This document shows, in pieces, positions 19,814 through 59,530 of a stretch of 64,000 nucleotides of DNA (position 1 is the stretch's first letter; each line of letters starts with the position of its first letter). The notes under the pieces were generated by a model. It was not told the DNA's origin, searched no databases, and saw only the letters and a program-made list of their open reading frames with translations. Source of the stretch: a bacterium (lineage in GTDB: Bacteria; Patescibacteriota; Saccharimonadia; Saccharimonadales; Saccharimonadaceae); contig DAIDKB010000044.1 of NCBI GenBank assembly GCA_027451105.1, positions 1 to 64,000 of the forward strand, given 5' to 3'. The position numbers were made by a program, and so were the translations under genes.

Positions 19814-20479
19814 TTAAGCGGCAACAACAGTTAAGGTCATTGGTAATGTGTAGCTGTCAGCGGCTTGCTCGGCAGGAATGACCTGTGAAAGGCCAATACC
19901 GGTTAGGTAGCCGCGCCATAGAGTTGCACCAACTGGTGAACTCATCAATGTAACCGGAGTACTTGTAGTCATAGCGGTTGATGTGCCTTTGTTAATAACA
20001 ACACTTGTACAAGCTGAGCTTACACAGTCGGCGGTTACAGTGGCGGCGGCTGGGTTGACGGTTAATTGACCAGTTGCACAGCCGGGGATTGAGTTAGCTA
20101 CAGTTGGGTCGTTGTAGGAATAGTTTTTAGTATTGCCGGTGTTTTGCCATTTAGTAGCTGCGCCACCGGTAGCAGCAATTGATAGTGACCAGCTTTGGTT
20201 AGAAGCAGTTGCTGATGGGTCGGTGACGTAAAGTCGTTGAGTTGAGCTACCTAATGTGCCGGTGACAGTCTGACAGTCGAATGAGAAGTTGGCGGCTGTC
20301 ATAGCAGCGGTTGGACTGGCAACAGGAGTGCGAGTACTGTCTAAGATATCGGTAGTTAGTGTGCCTGGGTTAATAGTTTGCGTTAGATTTGAGTTTGGAG
20401 CAGCATAGGCCGCGATAGGTGCAAGAACAAGCGCTACTAATGATAGCACTGCAGATGCGCCGAGACGTAACTTTTTCAT
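19814..20479 (-). CDS. Secreted WxL-like surface protein (locus A)
   Basis: 221 aa. Signal peptide ~1-27 (APIAAYA|AP). The mature part is one beta domain with FDCQTVTGTLGSSTQRLYV, a WSLSIAAT segment (a W-x-L), GCATGQL, two Cys pairs, and a final strand SQVIPAEQAADSYTLPMTLTV. It aligns with the C-terminal half of the 412-aa protein in the same locus. No membrane anchor, so it must be held by non-covalent wall or protein contacts, as WxL proteins are. Very good promoter (20516-20544) and SD AAGGGG with 8-nt spacing suggest high expression. Confidence 0.78.
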   Translation of the reverse strand: MKKLRLGASAVLSLVALVLAPIAAYAAPNSNLTQTINPGTLTTDILDSTRTPVASPTAAMTAANFSFDCQTVTGTLGSSTQRLYVTDPSATASNQSWSLSIAATGGAATKWQNTGNTKNYSYNDPTVANSIPGCATGQLTVNPAAATVTADCVSSACTSVVINKGTSTAMTTSTPVTLMSSPVGATLWRGYLTGIGLSQVIPAEQAADSYTLPMTLTVVAA

Positions 20480-20515
20480 TTGTTGAACCCCTTATTTAAT
20501 TACATTAAACACACA

Positions 20516-20544
20516 ATAATATGCTTATGTTATCAGTAAATCAA
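20516..20544 (-). promoter_or_regulatory. Sigma70-type promoter of surface locus A
   Basis: Minus strand TTGATT (20544-20539), 17-nt spacer, TATTAT (20521-20516), followed by a ~30-nt leader with AAGGGG before ATG 20479. Confidence 0.65.
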
Positions 20545-20577
20545 CAAGAAAACAAGTGATTTCCCCCTAAAACATCG

Positions 20578-20607
20578 TTGACGATTGGCGCCTAGCAAGG
20601 TTATAAT
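20578..20607 (+). promoter_or_regulatory. Promoter of tRNA-Asn
   Basis: TTGACG (20578-20583), 18-nt spacer, TATAAT (20602-20607). Predicted start ~20614, five bases before the mature tRNA end. Confidence 0.75.
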
Positions 20608-20618
20608 AGCCCTTGTAT

Positions 20619-20693
20619 TCCGGCGTAGCTCAATGGTGGAGCAAGAAGCTGTTAACTTCGAGGTTACTGGTTCGAGTCCAGTCGCCGGAGCCA
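20619..20693 (+). tRNA. tRNA-Asn(GTT)
   Basis: Full cloverleaf: acceptor TCCGGCG/CGCCGGA with discriminator G and encoded CCA (20691-20693); D stem GCTC/GAGC; anticodon loop CTGTTAA giving anticodon GTT; 5-nt variable loop; T stem ACTGG/CCAGT with loop TTCGAGT. The first anticodon-stem pair (A27-G43) is a mismatch. It has its own promoter and terminator, so it is a single-tRNA transcript between surface locus A and the cytochrome gene. Confidence 0.96.
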
Positions 20694-20700
20694 AATAATG

Positions 20701-20723
20701 ACACCCCAGCGATGGGTGTTTTT
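20701..20723 (+). terminator. Rho-independent terminator of tRNA-Asn
   Basis: ACACCC (20701-20706), 7-nt loop, GGGTGT (20714-20719), then TTTTA. Seven bases after the tRNA CCA end. Confidence 0.8.
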
Positions 20724-20850
20724 ATTTGGCTACGATGTTTCTGCTCCCCAAACCGGTAATATAAGATAACCATGAACAATATCCTATATTCAAAACTTAT
20801 AAATACTTATATAATTACAGTAAATTAACCATTAGGGGTCATAAATAAAA

Positions 20851-22245
20851 ATGTCAACAAAACGGCCACTACTAAACGCTCTGAACAATATGATGATTAA
20901 GGACGTGCCAAGCTATGGCAATAAGTTCTTTTACTCACTTGGTTTTTTGTCGATGATAGCATTCATGATATTGATTGTAACTGGTGTTGTTATGGTCTTT
21001 TTTGGACCAACCTGGTGGCTTACGAATAATATCGGCCAATACACGCGCAGCATTCATATGTGGGCTACTCAAGCCTTTGTCCTGTTTGTTATCCTGCATC
21101 TGATAATCGTTTTCTTTACCTCTGGCTTTAAAAAGCCGCGACGCCTAACCTGGGCGATAGGTGTTACTATGATGTTTATCGTTTTAGCCGAGACTGAATT
21201 TGGCTATGTCCTTCGTGGCGACTACACCTCGCAATGGCGCGGCTTGCAAGGAGCTGACTTTTATAATGGTAGTGGCATTGGCAACCTAATAAATGCACTT
21301 AACAGTAACCAGATTTATGGAATCCACATTATAGTTGTACCACTGACTATTCTGGGGCTTTTGTTCTTTCACTATCTGTTAGTACGCGTGCTTGGCATTG
21401 CAAAGCCCTACAGGAAAGATAAGGTTGTTGCAACTGTACCGGCAAACCACAAAGTACTGTTTATGCGCGGAGGTGTACTTATCGTCTTGATCTTGGGGTT
21501 GGCGGCATTTTTGCCATCACCATACATTAAACCAACGACGATACAATCAGTGGCTCAGTCTGATCCCTATCTGATGGGCAAGACTCTAATGGCGGAGTTT
21601 ACGGCTAGCTCTGACACGGCAGCCTATCTAGATAATATTGCCCCATATACGTACAACATGAGTGATGTTTATGTATCGACGCCGTACGCTCAATATGTGC
21701 AGCTTCAAAATGACAAGACTAACTATTTGTCCGTATATAATCAACAGCAGCCAGATATAAAGGCGCAGCAACTACAGGTCGTTAATGATTACTTTAGCAA
21801 AGACGTACCTGGTGCTGATAAACCACCGGTAAATTCATTAATGCGGGTTATTGACTCTTTAACCACGATGGCCCAAGCTGGGCTTTACGAACCGGCTATT
21901 GCTAGTGAGCAAAGTACTGGTCAGCTGAATGGACCAACTTATGTTTTGCGCTTCTTGTCTGACACGGGAGTGCTGGCGACGAAGGCGGTGTCGCTTAATA
22001 TCACGACTGATCAATACGGCATGGTGCACGAGGGGGCTGGCAATGCGCCTGGCGCGTGGTGGCTTTTGCCGATTGGTATACTTGATCATACAGTCCTAGC
22101 TAACGATGCTAATGGTGATCGAGACGCGGCCATTATATTTGGCTCACTCATGCTTACGATGTTGGCCTTTCCGTTCATTCCGTATGTCAATCAAATACCA
22201 GACAAGCTACAGGTATGGCGGTTAATTTGGCGCCAAAAGAAGTAA
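20851..22245 (+). CDS. b6-type cytochrome b with long external C-terminal region
   Basis: 464 aa. Residues ~1-200 match the four-helix cytochrome b/b6 N-terminal domain: haem ligands H69 and H83 (14 apart) in the second helix and H159 and H174 (15 apart, as in b6) in the fourth; GYVLRGDYTSQW at ~119 corresponds to the GYVLPWG quinol-site loop but lacks Pro-Trp-Gly. After a helix at ~208-225 comes a ~190-residue Gln/Asp-rich region likely outside, then PGAWWLLPIGILDH and a last helix (~430-447). Subunit IV helices and the PEWY motif are not evident, and no Rieske, cytochrome c1 or c gene is in the window. Likely role: quinol-linked electron transfer across the membrane; partner unknown. SD AGGGG at ~20834. 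Confidence 0.88.
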   Translation: MSTKRPLLNALNNMMIKDVPSYGNKFFYSLGFLSMIAFMILIVTGVVMVFFGPTWWLTNNIGQYTRSIHMWATQAFVLFVILHLIIVFFTSGFKKPRRLTWAIGVTMMFIVLAETEFGYVLRGDYTSQWRGLQGADFYNGSGIGNLINALNSNQIYGIHIIVVPLTILGLLFFHYLLVRVLGIAKPYRKDKVVATVPANHKVLFMRGGVLIVLILGLAAFLPSPYIKPTTIQSVAQSDPYLMGKTLMAEFTASSDTAAYLDNIAPYTYNMSDVYVSTPYAQYVQLQNDKTNYLSVYNQQQPDIKAQQLQVVNDYFSKDVPGADKPPVNSLMRVIDSLTTMAQAGLYEPAIASEQSTGQLNGPTYVLRFLSDTGVLATKAVSLNITTDQYGMVHEGAGNAPGAWWLLPIGILDHTVLANDANGDRDAAIIFGSLMLTMLAFPFIPYVNQIPDKLQVWRLIWRQKK

Positions 22246-22268
22246 AGTCTTAGACGAATAGGGCGTTT

Positions 22269-22679
22269 ATGAAGATATTTACTATCTGCAGCAAAGCTTT
22301 TTATGGCAATATTCCACCGATTAAAAGTGTGCTAGAAGACGCTGGCCATATAGTTGCGCTGTCAAATTGTTATGATGATCCAGGGACAGAGGCTCGGTAC
22401 CTGGAAATGGGTGAGTCGGAACACGCCCGTTGGAAGGCTGGTATGCTGCGCCATAGCCAAGATGTCATTTCTGAAAATGATGCCGTCCTAGTGCTGAACT
22501 TCGATAAGAATGGCCAGCAAAATTACATCGGTGGTGCGACATTTTTAGAGATGTATGTCGCCTGTCGTATGGGTAAAAAGATTTACCTTTATAACGACAT
22601 TCCGAGTGGTATGCTGACGGATGAAATTAAGGGATTTGAACCGGTGATTATTCGACAAAACCTTGAGCTGATCAATTAA
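22269..22679 (+). CDS. Nucleoside 2-deoxyribosyltransferase-like protein
   Basis: 136 aa. N-terminal MKIFTICSKAFYGNIPPIKSVLEDAGHIV, the NDAVLVLNFDKNG strand and the YIGGATFLEMYVACRMGKKIYL helix fit the Rossmann-like fold of nucleoside 2-deoxyribosyltransferase-like and related proteins, with the Glu of GATFLEM in the position of the catalytic Glu. True substrate unknown; it could work in nucleotide salvage or cleave modified nucleotides. SD AGGG before the ATG; follows the cytochrome gene by ~23 nt but no functional link is obvious. Confidence 0.65.
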   Translation: MKIFTICSKAFYGNIPPIKSVLEDAGHIVALSNCYDDPGTEARYLEMGESEHARWKAGMLRHSQDVISENDAVLVLNFDKNGQQNYIGGATFLEMYVACRMGKKIYLYNDIPSGMLTDEIKGFEPVIIRQNLELIN

Positions 22680-22725
22680 TCCTATTTGTTATAATTAAAT
22701 TAATGAATCAAGTAGCCAGACTATA

Positions 22726-22995
22726 ATGATTAATCTTAAGCGCATTTACGATGCTCCGGATCAGGCGGATGGCCAGCGGATTTTGGTTGATGGATTGTGG
22801 CCGCGTGGTGTCGGCAAAGAGCGGGCAGAAATTGATTTGTGGCTAAAAGAAGTGGCGCCGTCGGCTGAACTACGCACCTGGTTCGATCGTAAGTCTGAAC
22901 GATTTAAAGAATTTAGTACCAAGTATGCTGATGAGCTGTCTCGTAATTCGGCATGTCTAGACTTTAAACAGCAGGAGTCGGACAATGGCGATTAA
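22726..22995 (+). CDS. DUF488 protein, truncated copy
   Basis: 89 aa. Residues 1-73 align with the intact DUF488 gene at 25008 (IKRIYD, LWPRGV, DLWLKEVAPS, ERFKEFS are shared) but after DELSRNS the frame runs into unrelated text and ends 11 nt inside msrA. The missing ~40 C-terminal residues include the AAKD strand and C-terminal helix of the family. Also LVDGLWPRG replaces the conserved LVDRLWPRG, losing the Arg. I regard it as a decaying duplicate whose 3' end was replaced when msrA was joined here; its product is probably not functional. Confidence 0.7.
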   Translation: MINLKRIYDAPDQADGQRILVDGLWPRGVGKERAEIDLWLKEVAPSAELRTWFDRKSERFKEFSTKYADELSRNSACLDFKQQESDNGD

Positions 22996-23479
22996 AACTG
23001 CCTACCTAGCGGGTGGCTGTTTTTGGGGTTTAGAAGAGCTAATCCGTGACCAACCCGGTGTGGTTGATACTGAAGTTGGCTATTGCGGCGGCAGTAATGT
23101 GAGCCCAACTTATGAAAACCATCCAGGACACGCCGAAACTGTTAAGGTGACATATGATGACACCAAAATATCCTACGCTGAATTGTTAGATTTTTTCTTT
23201 CGAATTCATGATCCGACCACTAAAAATCGACAAGGTGATGATGTTGGTTCAAGCTATCGTTCGGCGATATTTTATCAAAACGATAATGAACTTGCAGAGG
23301 CAAAGCGCTTAATTGAATTAACCAATCAATCTGGATTATATAAAGACCAGGTTATTACATTGCTCGAGCCTTTTATGCAGTTTTATAAAGCAGAAGATTA
23401 TCATCAAGATTATTTGCGCAAAAATCCCGGCGGCTATACCTGTCATTTTATTCGAACTGATATATCTATGCTTAAATAG
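22985..23479 (+). CDS. msrA: Peptide-methionine (S)-S-oxide reductase
   Basis: 164 aa. Repairs oxidised methionine. GGCFWGLEEL at ~10-19 carries catalytic Cys12; GVVDTEVGYCGG, HPGHAETVKV, FFRIHDPTT, QGDDVGSSYRS and AEDYHQDYL are all family motifs. C-terminal GGYTC may supply a resolving Cys. AGGAG lies 7 nt before the ATG, inside the truncated DUF488 frame. No msrB is fused or adjacent. Confidence 0.95.
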   Translation: MAIKTAYLAGGCFWGLEELIRDQPGVVDTEVGYCGGSNVSPTYENHPGHAETVKVTYDDTKISYAELLDFFFRIHDPTTKNRQGDDVGSSYRSAIFYQNDNELAEAKRLIELTNQSGLYKDQVITLLEPFMQFYKAEDYHQDYLRKNPGGYTCHFIRTDISMLK

Positions 23480-23502
23480 TCAAACTTTTGATTATGAAGA
23501 CC

Positions 23503-24864
23503 CTAAAACAGCGATATCAGCAGAGCGACTGCGGCGACGAGCATGACAATGAAGGTTATACCAAGCAGTAATTTGGACCAGAATCGGTTCTTGTAGTCGC
23601 CCATGATATGGCTACGGCTGGATATCTGCAGGATGATAAACAGTAGCGGTACGGCTACGATTCCGTTAAAGACCGCCGTCATAACCAAGGCTTTGATTGG
23701 GTCTAGGCCTATGAAGTTTAGGGCTAGACCGATTAATGTACCGATGATAATGACAAAGTAGAATTCGCGAGCTTGTTTGAACTTGCGAAATAAGCCCTCG
23801 CGCCAGTTAAAAGTTTCGGCAATGGCGTAAGACGACGAGCCGGCCAGCACAGGAATGCTCATTAGGCCGATACCGATAACGCCAACTGCAAATATAACTT
23901 GGGCTAGGAAGCCGGCATTAGGAAATGTATGAACCAGGGGCACAAGGGCACGGGCAGCATCTGCCGCCGTTACGATGTTAGTAATGCCGGCATGATTAAG
24001 TACGACCGCGCCGACCACAATGATAAACCAGGCTGTTACGTTAGAGAACAACATACCGATGACGGTATCAATCCGCAGGCGTCGTAAGTAGCGTCGACTT
24101 AATCTTGGGACGCCGCCAGTTTGGGGTAGACGGTGGGCGGCAATTTCATCCTCGACAACATTGCTGGTTTGCCAAAAGAACAGGTATGGCGAAATCGTCG
24201 TACCAAAGATGGCGACGATCATAAATATAAATTCCTGATTGAACTCAATCTGTGGAATCACGGTGCTTCTGAGGGTGTCAAGCCAGGGTACGTTTACGAT
24301 AAAGGCAGTGATAATGTATGCAAAAAGAGCCATGGCGAGCCATTTTAAGATACGAACGTAAGTGCGGTAGGATAAAAATACCTCAAGTATCAAAATAATA
24401 ACCGCAAATCCAACGGCAATAAGTGCAAATGGTACCTGCGGTAAGAGCAGCTGGGTGCTGGCCGCCATCGCCCCGATGTCCGAACCGATATTAAAGGTAT
24501 TAGCTAGGACTACTAATAGCACAATCGGGTATAGAATCTTGCGAGGATAATTTTCACGGATAATAGCCGCTAGTCCACGACCAGTGACGGCGCCGATGCG
24601 CATCACGGCTTCTTGTACGGAAACCATTAACGGAAAGGTTAGTAGCATGGTCCAAGCAGTGCCAAAGCCAAATTGAGCGCCGGACTGCGAGTAGGTGGCT
24701 ATACCAGATGGGTCATCATCGGCAGCGCCAGTGATAATACCGGGTCCAAGAATCCGAAGGAGTCGGCCGATTCTCTTCTGGGTTTTTAATGGCCGGCGAA
24801 AGGTGCGAAAAAAGCTTTGCTTTTTTTCCGAGTCATCAACGACCTCATCGGGGAATTTAACCAT
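23503..24864 (-). CDS. Nramp-family divalent metal transporter, variant motifs
   Basis: 453 aa with ~11 helices after a basic N-terminus. TM1 carries DDDPSGIATYSQ where classical Nramp proteins have DPGN, and TM6 has TTISPYLFFWQ where they have the Met-Pro-His metal site, so the transition-metal-selecting Met is absent. The protein therefore belongs to the DPSG/ISPYLFFW side branch of Nramp-related carriers whose metal specificity is uncertain (Mg, Mn or other). TATCAT on the minus strand (24877-24872) ends 7 nt before the ATG and there is no SD. Convergent with msrA. Confidence 0.88.
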   Translation of the reverse strand: MVKFPDEVVDDSEKKQSFFRTFRRPLKTQKRIGRLLRILGPGIITGAADDDPSGIATYSQSGAQFGFGTAWTMLLTFPLMVSVQEAVMRIGAVTGRGLAAIIRENYPRKILYPIVLLVVLANTFNIGSDIGAMAASTQLLLPQVPFALIAVGFAVIILILEVFLSYRTYVRILKWLAMALFAYIITAFIVNVPWLDTLRSTVIPQIEFNQEFIFMIVAIFGTTISPYLFFWQTSNVVEDEIAAHRLPQTGGVPRLSRRYLRRLRIDTVIGMLFSNVTAWFIIVVGAVVLNHAGITNIVTAADAARALVPLVHTFPNAGFLAQVIFAVGVIGIGLMSIPVLAGSSSYAIAETFNWREGLFRKFKQAREFYFVIIIGTLIGLALNFIGLDPIKALVMTAVFNGIVAVPLLFIILQISSRSHIMGDYKNRFWSKLLLGITFIVMLVAAVALLISLF

Positions 24865-25007: not shown

Positions 25008-25355
25008 ATGATACAAATTAAGAGAATCTATGATGAGCCGGCTACAACTGATGGTATGCGAGTATTGGTAGATAGGCTGTGGCCGCGGGGTGTCAGTAAA
25101 GACCGAGCGGCCATTGATTTATGGCTGAAAGAAGTTGCTCCGTCGTCAGAGCTGCGCGTTTGGTTCGATCATAAGCCTGAACGATTTAAAGAATTTAGCG
25201 CTAAATATACTGATGAACTATCAACTAATCCAGCCGTTTACCAACTTAAAGAAATAATTCGCACCAATCCTAACACGACTCTTTTATATGCCGCCAAGGA
25301 TTCGTCCGCAAACCATGCCTTGGTTCTTTTAGGTTTTTTGAAACAAAATATATAA
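25008..25355 (+). CDS. DUF488 family protein
   Basis: 115 aa, full length for the short DUF488 (YeaO-like) family: IQIKRIYDEP, VLVDRLWPRGVSKDRA, DLWLKEVAPSSELRVWF, TLLYAAKDSSANHALVL. Function of the family is unknown. TATAAT (24996-25001) ends 6 nt before the ATG and there is no SD, which predicts a leaderless mRNA. Followed after 14 nt by the DUF1801 gene with a good SD. A truncated paralogue is 2 kb upstream. Confidence 0.88.
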   Translation: MIQIKRIYDEPATTDGMRVLVDRLWPRGVSKDRAAIDLWLKEVAPSSELRVWFDHKPERFKEFSAKYTDELSTNPAVYQLKEIIRTNPNTTLLYAAKDSSANHALVLLGFLKQNI

Positions 25356-56686: not shown

Positions 56687-57190
56687 ATGTCACAACAGAA
56701 TAAAACGAAAATCATCGGTTTGATTGTCGTCGTGTTGCTATCAACGGCTGCGACGGCTGGTGTCGTATTGGTTAAAAATGGCCATACCGACGATTCATCA
56801 CTCTCAAATGTCAGCAGTAATACGGCGGCTAGCTCATCAATAACGGCATCAACGAATAATGGCACCACGCCGGCAGCTACTTCAACGGCTACTTATAAAG
56901 ACGGCACCTACTCCGCCCAGGGAAACTTTGACACACCAGATGGCACCGAGCAAATTGGCGTCACGGTTAAGCTTAGTGGCAACAATATCGCTTCGGTGTC
57001 AATCGATGACTCATCGATATACTCGGGTACGTCATTTGCATATACCGAGCGTTTCATTAATGGTCTTAACTCGGTTGTTGTTGGTAAAAATATTGACACT
57101 GTAAATATCGGTCGCATATCTGGAGCCTCTCTGACGCCAATCGGCTTCAATGCGGCTCTTGACACCATTAAGAACGAAGCCAAAGCCTAA
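56687..57190 (+). CDS. Exported FMN-binding (covalent flavin) protein
   Basis: 167 aa. Helix ~9-29, Ser/Thr/Asn-rich linker to ~68, then an FMN_bind domain (YKDGTYSAQGNFDTPDGTEQIGVTVKLSG in parts; ERFINGLNSVVVGKNID). The motif IGRISGASLT (141-150), S-G-A-(S/T)-x-T, is the site where ApbE links FMN to a Ser/Thr (here Ser148). The next gene, 3 nt on, is apbE. So this is a membrane-tethered flavoprotein on the outer face, comparable to RnfG/NqrC and to extracellular electron-transfer flavoproteins. Confidence 0.88.
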   Translation: MSQQNKTKIIGLIVVVLLSTAATAGVVLVKNGHTDDSSLSNVSSNTAASSSITASTNNGTTPAATSTATYKDGTYSAQGNFDTPDGTEQIGVTVKLSGNNIASVSIDDSSIYSGTSFAYTERFINGLNSVVVGKNIDTVNIGRISGASLTPIGFNAALDTIKNEAKA

Positions 57191-57193
57191 ATT

Positions 57194-58027
57194 ATGGAAT
57201 TTGAGGCAATCGGAACCCACTGGTGGATTCAGCCGGGTAAGGTAGAGTTAGATGCGCCGAAAATTAAGCAGGTAATTGAAGGCATTGATCAAACCTGGTC
57301 GCGCTTTCGGGATGATTCAATAGTTGCCAAGATGGCGATAAGCGCCGGTATCTATCCGCTACTACCATCGGATATTGAATTACTCAATTGGTATCGCCAG
57401 CTCTATCTAGCGACTGATGGTTTTGTGACACCCCTAATTGGCCAGACGTTGGCGGATGCCGGCTATGATAGCGACTATTCCTTGAAGCCAAAGGCGGAAA
57501 TTGCGATTACGCCAACCTGGGATGAGGTGTTATCGCTTGGCAAAACGTCACTAACTCTAAGACGGCCCGCCTTAATTGATGTCGGGGCAGCCGGCAAGGG
57601 TTATGCGGTTGATAAAGTTGCCGAACTTTTTAAGGGTGATTATTGTATTGATGCCGGTGGTGATATTAAAGTTGGTGATATCAAGATGGACATTGGACTG
57701 GAAGACCCGCGTGACCCGACCAAGTTAATCGGTGTAGCGACGGTCAAGAATACTTCAATTTGTGGATCGGCTATTAATCGGCGGGCCTGGAAGGGTTGGA
57801 ACCATGTCATTAATCCAAAATCATCAAAGCCAGTCGATGATATTATTGCCACTTGGGTGATTTGCGACAGTGCCATGCAAGCGGATGGCTTGGCGACGGC
57901 TTTATTTTTTGTTTCACCAGATAAGTTACGGCATTTGGCCGATTTTAAATACTGTATCATGTACAGCGACGGCAGCATTAAGGTCACAGATAATAGTATG
58001 ATTAAAATATTTACGGAGAATGAATAA
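57194..58027 (+). CDS. apbE: FAD:protein FMN transferase
   Basis: 277 aa. Attaches FMN to target proteins. IDQTWSRFRDDSIVAKM at the N-terminus, LIDVGAAGKGYAVDKVAELF and YCIDAGGDIKVG are the core FAD/Mg motifs; NRRAWKGWNHVINPKSSKP matches the H-(I/V)-(I/L)-(D/N)-P segment; DSAMQADGLATALFF is the C-terminal D-A-x-x-T region. No signal peptide, so the enzyme would act in the cytoplasm unless exported otherwise, which is odd if its target domain is outside. Sits between its two presumed substrates. Confidence 0.93.
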   Translation: MEFEAIGTHWWIQPGKVELDAPKIKQVIEGIDQTWSRFRDDSIVAKMAISAGIYPLLPSDIELLNWYRQLYLATDGFVTPLIGQTLADAGYDSDYSLKPKAEIAITPTWDEVLSLGKTSLTLRRPALIDVGAAGKGYAVDKVAELFKGDYCIDAGGDIKVGDIKMDIGLEDPRDPTKLIGVATVKNTSICGSAINRRAWKGWNHVINPKSSKPVDDIIATWVICDSAMQADGLATALFFVSPDKLRHLADFKYCIMYSDGSIKVTDNSMIKIFTENE

Positions 58028-59530
58028 ATGCGACGGGCAATTGAACAATTTATAGATAGTATTACGATGTATCGCGCGGTGTTGTACGGGCTTTACCTAA
58101 TGGTCGCAACGGCCATTGGTCTTAGTCTGTTCGGTCAGCTAAGCTTTACGCCAGGCGATTTAATTATCACGGCAGCGATTCTATTGGTAGCTTCGTATCT
58201 TATAAATCGATTATTTGCCTGGACCTTTTCAGTGCCATATAACCCCGAATCTTGGCAAATTACAGCCTTAATTATCTTCTTTTTGATATTTCCACAAAGT
58301 GATTTAAAAGGTTATTTAGATGTAGTGATTATTGCCGCTATTTCAATGGCCTCCAAATATATACTGGCGATTCGGGGCCGGCATATCTTTAACCCAGCGG
58401 CTGTCGCGGTTGCCATAGGCGGTCTATTGGGAGTGCTTGGTGCAACTTGGTGGATTGGTACATTGTATCTGTTGCCGGTGGTTATGATTGTCGGCTTCTT
58501 GTTGACCTGGAAGTTGCGCCATTTTTGGATGGTTGGTCTTTATATGTTTGCCAGCTTGGTGGTGGCAGCCATCTTGGCTCAGACAAGTGGACATAGCGTC
58601 GTGGAATCAATTAAGGGTGCAATTATATCGGGCCCGATGGTCTTTGCTGGCACGATTATGCTAACCGAGCCGTTGACCTCACCGACAACCAAGCGTGCCC
58701 AGATGTTTTTTGGCCTATTTGTAGGCGCCTTAACTGGTGGCCATTTAGGTTGGATATCAAAACCAGACGTGGCAATTTTAGTTGGCAACGTCTACGCCTT
58801 TATGCTTGGCGCGCGCCGATCGATTAGTCTTAAATATGCCGGGACCAGAGAGTTAGCGCCGACAGTACATGAGTTTTTGTTTAAGCCGACACATGCCTTA
58901 AAGTTTAAGCCTGGCCAATATATCGAGTTGACCTTACCGCATAGCGGTGCCGATGACCGCGGTACGCGTCGAGTTTTTTCGATTGCTTCGCGACCAGGCG
59001 CTGAATACTTGCGACTTGGTCTTGTTATGCCTGAAGTCGACCCTAGTACATTTAAACAAGTAATGGTTGGTCTTAAACCGGGCGCCGTGGTCCGTGCCAC
59101 TCAGGTTGGTGGTAGTTTTGTGCTGCCGCATAACCCCCGGAAACCACTTGTTTTTGTAGCCGGTGGTATTGGCATAACCCCTTTTCGAGCCATGCTCGAT
59201 GAACTTATCGAGAAAAACGAAAAACGACCGATTACCCTATTTTATGCAGTCCGCCGCCAAGAAGCCGCTGTTTATACTGATATTTTAAGTCAAGCCATCC
59301 GCACGATTGGTTTGCAAGTTGTTATCGTGGTGGCTGAACCACAAGCTGATTGGACTGGTGAGGCGGGTCGCTTGACGGTCGATACGATAGCTAAATACGT
59401 TCCTGACCTACCCGATAGTAGAGTTTACATATCTGGTCCAAATGCCATGGTCCAGGATTTTCGACGTGACCTAAGTAGCTATAATGTCAGTCCTATGGAT
59501 ATTGTGACCGACTACTTTACTGGCTATTAA
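58028..59530 (+). CDS. RnfD/NqrB-like membrane domain fused to ferredoxin-NADP reductase domain
   Basis: 500 aa; ATG touches the apbE stop. Residues 1-265 hold ~9 helices of the NQR2/RnfD/RnfE family: RHIFNPAAVAVAIGG (119-133) and LTEPLTSPTTKRAQMFFG (212-229), the latter equal to the T-D-P-(V/L)-T-x-x-T-T segment where Rnf/Nqr proteins carry covalent FMN (Thr220/221 here). Residues ~275-500 are a reductase of FNR type: RRVFSIASRPG (314-324, FAD), GGIGITPFRAML (~378-389, NAD(P)), and ISGPNAMVQDF near the end with Ser in place of the usual Cys-Gly-Pro. So electrons would go from NAD(P)H through FAD to membrane FMN and then to the exported FMN protein, in one polypeptide plus partner. Confidence 0.88.
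   Translation: MRRAIEQFIDSITMYRAVLYGLYLMVATAIGLSLFGQLSFTPGDLIITAAILLVASYLINRLFAWTFSVPYNPESWQITALIIFFLIFPQSDLKGYLDVVIIAAISMASKYILAIRGRHIFNPAAVAVAIGGLLGVLGATWWIGTLYLLPVVMIVGFLLTWKLRHFWMVGLYMFASLVVAAILAQTSGHSVVESIKGAIISGPMVFAGTIMLTEPLTSPTTKRAQMFFGLFVGALTGGHLGWISKPDVAILVGNVYAFMLGARRSISLKYAGTRELAPTVHEFLFKPTHALKFKPGQYIELTLPHSGADDRGTRRVFSIASRPGAEYLRLGLVMPEVDPSTFKQVMVGLKPGAVVRATQVGGSFVLPHNPRKPLVFVAGGIGITPFRAMLDELIEKNEKRPITLFYAVRRQEAAVYTDILSQAIRTIGLQVVIVVAEPQADWTGEAGRLTVDTIAKYVPDLPDSRVYISGPNAMVQDFRRDLSSYNVSPMDIVTDYFTGY

Follow-up and report, generated by a model that had tools for sequence, protein, structure and literature searches.

Cytochrome b subunits that stand alone have been described from acidophilic small archaea (PMC5864196, PMC10134863). 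In the accessible portions of these papers, the Micrarchaeota/Parvarchaeota orphan is treated as a complex III of doubtful function, and neither an external domain nor a flavin link is described. A different line of work concerns the NQR/RNF-like flavinylation systems, in which, as far as the accessible portion of that report goes, a single path takes electrons from NAD(P)H to a flavin mononucleotide (FMN) domain on the extracytosolic side (PMC8238504). The membrane haem proteins associated with flavinylation (DUF4405, PepSY, and MsrQ) form a third point of comparison (PMC10979944), and the term cytochrome b is absent from the main text of both of these flavinylation papers. For candidate-phyla genomes, bo3 and bd oxidases have been reported in papers whose available sections do not mention the cytochrome b considered here (PMC8407418, PMC9166423), and an NqrB/NqrF-like fusion with suspected quinone scavenging appears in the available part of a study of a soil Saccharibacterium (Starr et al. 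2018, PMC6031116). Here we describe a Rieske-less cytochrome b of 464 residues encoded at positions 20851-22245 on the forward strand of the window, the 64,000-nucleotide stretch of contig DAIDKB010000044.1 (Saccharimonadaceae) that was analysed as a whole. The best explanation of this protein, to which we give a probability of about one half, is a cytochrome b that has shed the Rieske and cytochrome c machinery and been remodelled for flavoprotein partners, as a two-haem membrane wire.

Judged by its sequence, the open reading frame (ORF) is a real b6-type cytochrome b core. It passes the Pfam cut-offs of both PF13631 (64.5 versus 27 bits) and PF00033 (45.6 versus 27.2 bits), and its top sequence relatives in the PDB are cytochrome b6 chains (1.8e-18 over residues 13-186). 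The b6-type four-helix core, delimited by Pfam, PDB sequence matches, and alignment, spans residues 1-190 (20851-21420, forward strand) and carries the haem ligands H69, H83, H159, and H174, two pairs located in helices B and D. The spacing of 14 within the first pair and 15 within the second is that of cytochrome b6, as the initial annotation of this sequence had noted, and all four histidines are invariant in the 67 of 67 aligned rows that hold the core part. Below their thresholds, the protein matches DUF4405 at 25.7 bits (cut-off 26.7), which the b6 ORF of a split relative at locus L031 exceeds with 31.3 bits, and ExtP of the selenite/tellurite operons (NF040969), its best NCBIfam match, at 80.8 bits against a cut-off of 290 and over the four-helix core only. 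The protein is not unique: relatives at E ≤ 1e-10 occur in 15 of the 379 genomes sampled from the phylum (the positive genomes below), and a contig scan with alignment A1 yielded 304 relatives, 80 of which were kept.

The quinol-site motifs set this core apart from its relatives of known function. PWG is the bc1 form of the b6 motif PWD, and at that position the PDB alignment places RGD..SQ in the window protein, so that the earlier observation of a missing PWG quinol loop holds. The replacement residues are conserved in the relatives, and near this replaced cd1 motif Q128, D136, and N139 are kept in 67 of 67 rows. Both Qo motifs, PWG in cd1 and PEWY in the EF loop, are replaced, the second one presumably by PG.WW. 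The cysteine through which cytochrome b6 binds haem cn corresponds in the PDB alignment to a serine, and the window protein contains no cysteine at all.

Beyond the core, the AlphaFold model of the full-length protein (predicted local distance difference test score, pLDDT, 92.3; predicted template modelling score, pTM, 0.90) contains a fifth, helix-E-like membrane helix at residues 200-220 (21448-21510; hydropathy 198-229) and a last, helix-F-like membrane helix at residues 422-442 (22114-22176; hydropathy 425-447, also seen in the alignment), both on the forward strand. Between them, model, conservation, and hydropathy delimit an all-helical domain of about residues 224-421 (21520-22113, forward strand), which is predicted to lie outside the cell because of the positive-inside pattern. 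Its length agrees with the ≈190 residues first estimated, and the C-terminal part had been taken for a domain followed by one helix; the domain stands, but it is flanked by membrane helices on both sides, which therefore number six in total. The Gln/Asp-rich character ascribed to it proves to be a mild enrichment (Q 7.6%, D 7.1%). Neither Pfam nor NCBIfam gives a match to the domain, which bears the conserved PG.WW at residues 400-404; a conserved P.IP..N..P follows the last membrane helix.

By VIA-align, the full-length model superposes on cytochrome b chains of bc1 complexes with Z scores of about 22-25; residues 5-458, for example, align with residues 8-317 of chain 8ic2_Ac at Z 23.5 and a root-mean-square deviation of 3.0 Å over 276 residues. 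At most 186 of these 276 aligned residues lie before residue 191, and therefore at least 90 lie beyond helix D. In this model, the C-terminal half resembles a subunit-IV segment after remodelling, with helices E and F apparently retained along with part of the stretch between them. We read the external domain as an insertion in the modelled E-F segment and the helices after F as absent, and PG.WW may be the counterpart of PEWY in the register we infer. A sequence proof of this relationship failed: a search of the PDB with the 67-row profile A6 (hmmsearch) gave only a chance sortase match (E 0.77), and hhalign probabilities stayed below 1% in comparisons with the C-terminal domains of a genuine subunit IV (L139) and of a genuine cytochrome b (L138). 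The subunit-IV assignment is therefore drawn from the full-length model and not from sequence. Folded alone, the C-terminal half (pLDDT 83) has no convincing fold match in the PDB, the external domain itself having been folded only within larger constructs. The initial annotation had declared subunit IV missing, which agrees with the hhalign result and with the absence of PF00032, the subunit IV or C-terminal domain, from 15 of 15 positive genomes; in the predicted structure, however, the superposition extends beyond helix D.

Compared with b6 and bc1 cytochrome b, then, the protein shares the four-helix two-haem core, the 14/15 histidine spacing, and a model fit of Z about 24, whereas it differs in the replaced PWG/PWD and PEWY motifs, the lack of a PF00032 domain and of any helix after F, the added external domain, and the partners, since no Rieske or c-type partner was found. 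No ORF of the window has a CxxCH or Rieske-type motif, as first annotated, and no ORF with CxxCH occurs in 14 neighbourhoods of relatives either. The genome (919,156 bases, 99.97% complete) was searched for a petA or petC homologue, which would turn the gene into part of an ordinary split bc complex; nothing was found with Rieske (PF00355), PF13442 c-type cytochrome, or PF00032 profiles, the cytochrome c1 and f families (PF02167 and PF01333) not being covered by the search. PF13442 is absent from all 15 positive genomes. Rieske proteins are lacking in 10 of the 15, and the other five have only ORFs of 104-132 residues; by gene neighbourhood, the short ones at L133-L135 resemble small soluble ferredoxins of the Rieske type. 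A search of the window genome for a second cytochrome b copy gave none. Of the oxidase and quinone genes thought worth seeking there, cytochrome bd subunit I is present (contig C32; L131:7091-8952), while COX1 and a UbiA-family prenyltransferase gave no match. The bd subunit I gene is directly followed by an ORF of 172 residues that matches subunit II only below the threshold.

The window does encode a flavin module, all on the forward strand: an FMN_bind-like protein (56687-57190), an ApbE flavin transferase (57194-58027; PF02424, 2.2e-33), and an NqrB/RnfD membrane domain fused to a NAD-binding FNR domain (58028-59530; PF03116, PF00175), referred to below as NqrB-FNR. The FMN_bind-like protein does not reach the Pfam FMN_bind cut-off; it resembles an FMN_bind-like ORF at L021 (phmmer, 6.7e-19), has an N-terminal hydrophobic segment, and contains at residue 145 an SGAS motif, a candidate flavinylation site. 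This set corresponds to the NQR/RNF-like flavinylation systems (PMC8238504) in combining NqrB, here fused to a NAD-binding domain, with ApbE and an FMN_bind-like protein. A second flavin set, on contig C34 of the same genome (L132:5932-9391), comprises an FNR reductase and ApbE together with two membrane ORFs that match no Pfam family, and FNR, an ApbE-like ORF, and a membrane ORF are likewise found near the cytochrome b of L021.

In two relatives, the cytochrome b gene and the module stand side by side. At L098 (Adlerbacteria) and L053 (UBA6017), the genes for cytochrome b, FMN_bind, ApbE, and NqrB-FNR follow one another in this order on one strand, with gaps of 53 and 86 nucleotides, respectively, between cytochrome b and FMN_bind; at L055, FMN_bind lies 44 nucleotides downstream on the same strand. 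All three FMN_bind proteins contain SGA[ST]. Parts of the module occur within 7 kb of the cytochrome b at L021/L048 (one genome), L022/L075 (one genome), L067, and L089. The DUF4405, PepSY, and MsrQ cytochromes, as far as their description is accessible (PMC10979944), are likewise membrane haem proteins encoded beside ApbE/FMN_bind; that adjacency is seen at L053, L098, and L055 and not in the window, and our protein differs from them in its b6/bc1-type core and external domain. In the open-access literature searched, we found no report of a connection between this cytochrome b and flavinylation.

The association extends to whole genomes. Full-length NqrB-FNR is present in 11 of 15 positive and 49 of 364 negative genomes (Fisher p 5.5e-7) and, counted by family, in 10 of 11 positive and 21 of 141 negative families (p 3e-7; the highest family number seen was taken to imply 152 families in all). 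ApbE shows a comparable bias (12/15 versus 71/364, p 1.6e-6), and COX1 a weaker one (5/15 versus 24/364, p 0.003). Because the genomes are related, these p values are too small. A further 50 positive genomes, taken from the 80 kept relatives and distinct from the 15 of the phylum sample, have the NqrB part in 40 cases, or 40 of 46 without four archaea; this count includes partial or broken matches in G384, G386, G400, and G405, and the genomes without it are G383, G393, G407, G408, G415, G417, G420, G426, G430, and G432. We regard the flavin link of this cytochrome b in bacteria as well supported, and the initial annotation's suggestion of a haem conduit with the flavin module as partner thus gains clear support from the gene order at L053, L098, and L055 and from the strong co-occurrence.

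On this reading, an extracytosolic flavoprotein would take the place of Rieske protein and cytochrome c as the electron-exchange partner. The external domain would serve as a dock, next to the outer haem, for an FMN_bind carrier with covalently bound flavin, and the two haems would form the electron link that connects the extracytosolic FMN with the membrane's inner side. Electrons from NADH could then travel through NqrB-FNR to the FMN carrier outside, on to the outer and the inner haem, and from there to quinone or another inner-side acceptor, followed in the window genome by cytochrome bd. The cytochrome b might in this way provide a return path, which, compared with true NQR/RNF, is missing from the NQR/RNF-like module. 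Haem binding, flavinylation, and docking are predictions from sequence and model; the inward direction is the least sure step, direction and acceptor both being hypothetical. A more far-reaching version, which we hold tentatively and do not consider likely, is a counterpart of complex III that is driven by flavin and needs no Rieske protein, in which the covalent-FMN carrier would replace Rieske and cytochrome c, the helical E-F domain would be the dock, and the NQR/RNF-like half-circuit would be closed. This would be a minimal semicircular electron-transfer complex in ultra-small bacteria, the Micrarchaeota cytochrome having other partners.

Several findings weigh against the flavoprotein-linked inward wire, in addition to the relatedness that inflates the statistics. 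In the window itself, the flavin module lies 36 kb from the cytochrome b gene, with no shared operon. Three of the 15 positive genomes have only an FNR domain or a weak match and G355 has none, and the NqrB part is absent from 4 of 4 archaeal positives. Against the proposed direction stand G081, G118, G253, G256, and G339, in which the module is present and searches for COX1, bd, and UbiA gave no match, so that no quinol sink is known for them.

These five genomes, together with the lack of NqrB-FNR in G355, make an outward route a serious rival, even if on balance we find it unlikely. Here a quinol or other inner donor would feed the inner haem, and electrons would leave through the outer haem and the external domain, to be taken up by the FMN carrier or directly by an acceptor outside the cell, for example Fe(III). 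In G355, ApbE and FMN_bind lie 4-5 kb from the cytochrome b, which could be the feeder there. The absence of COX1 and bd matches from the five module-bearing genomes also fits this direction, as do NDH-2-like genes 0.1-5.4 kb from the cytochrome b at L039, L040, L042, L093, and the archaeal L101, which suggest that partners vary. So does the role proposed for the published flavinylation-associated cytochromes, which, in the accessible part of that work, are thought to move membrane electrons for flavinylated proteins (PMC10979944). The route would be redundant, however, in most positive genomes, in which the FMN carrier is supplied by NqrB-FNR already, and neither a multihaem protein nor any other acceptor on the outside came to light.

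That the protein belongs to an ordinary bc/b6f-type complex, strongly diverged and with Rieske and c-type subunits that went undetected, seems improbable. Its top structural matches are indeed bc1 cytochrome b chains, and a complete PetAB is recorded for one parcubacterium in the accessible portion of a published survey (PMC5220378), but the Rieske, PF13442, and PF00032 counts given above all run the other way, and the Qo motifs are replaced by other residues that are themselves conserved. A haem or redox sensor, the other function first suggested, is very improbable to our minds. It draws some weak support from L062, where an ORF (L062:7430-9283) lies 86 nucleotides downstream of the cytochrome b and precedes a response-regulator-like ORF, and from CRP-like ORFs near the cytochrome b at L047, L048, L110, and L111; a Pfam search finds no signalling domain in the cytochrome b itself, however, both haem pairs are invariant, and the gene linkage is mostly to redox genes. 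The L062 ORF is a fusion of NAD-binding (FNR-type), PAS, and histidine kinase domains and is a possible redox sensor kinase in its own right. Least probable of all, and barely credible, is a non-functional, decaying relict of complex III, for although the distribution is patchy (15/379, with no relative in the same-genus genomes G209, G236, and G260), the ORFs are intact and core and external domain are strongly conserved over 67 rows, in fused and split builds alike.

This branch of the cytochrome b family is real, conserved, and widely spread but rare. Contig titles among the 80 relatives kept of the 304 name Saccharibacteria, Parcubacteria, Kaiser-, Adler-, Doudna-, Berkel-, Davies-, and Levybacteria, and Micrarchaeota. 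Four loci (L037, L044, L060, and L113) are titled Actinomycetes, Actinomycetota, Propionibacteriaceae, or Planctomycetota yet contain relatives, and these are probably contigs of small genomes mis-binned into larger bins. L079 looks archaeal because its neighbours are A/V-type ATP synthase genes. One of these, an A-subunit-like ORF of 1058 residues (L079:9543-12719), is presumably longer than usual for its family and possibly contains an intein. In the midpoint-rooted tree, which was built without L020-L026 (contigs already represented) and without incomplete short rows, the four archaeal rows group together next to the bacterial ones, with weak support (93/63). The archaeal-type loci L079, L090, and L108 can be likened to the published archaeal orphans by description only; the Parvarchaeum/Acidifodinimicrobium "bc1 cytochrome b" resembles our protein, in the accessible text, in being a single cytochrome b subunit (PMC10134863). 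Alignment A5 set the window protein beside 61 of 83 long and 10 of 14 short cytochrome references.

Most genomes encode a single-chain cytochrome b. The N-terminus is longer in G149 and G219, and G118, G141, G182, G192, and G346 have a split build, with a b6-length ORF and an adjoining ORF for helix, external domain, and helix. After the split genes, a third small ORF of 119-143 residues with hydrophobic segments follows in 5 of 5 cases (L027, L029, L030, L031, and L032). A multi-gene neighbourhood common to all relatives was sought and not found; an ABC ATPase family present in 22 of 96 clustered sources (94 loci plus two window stretches) was taken as background. In the window, a tRNA-Asn gene (20619-20693) lies just upstream of the cytochrome b gene. 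A mobile-element origin at this tRNA was considered and dropped, the tRNA-end repeat being absent from 20300-24000. Downstream, two highly alike short ORFs (22726-22995 and 25008-25355), the first of them truncated, likely represent a duplication with one copy decaying; a nearby ORF is one that we take to be methionine-sulfoxide-reductase-like.

A lone cytochrome b without the rest of complex III has twice been noted and doubted in Micrarchaeota/Parvarchaeota, as far as the accessible parts of those papers show (PMC5864196, PMC10134863). For the bacterial relatives, the flavin linkage described here offers a testable partner, and the family now comprises a few hundred sequences whose external domain had not been described. 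The linkage suggests an unrecognised transmembrane electron route in ultra-small bacteria. If the proposed route is true, a b6-type cytochrome would join the flavinylation systems, and the core of complex III would be reusable without Rieske chemistry in genomes of ≈1 Mb.
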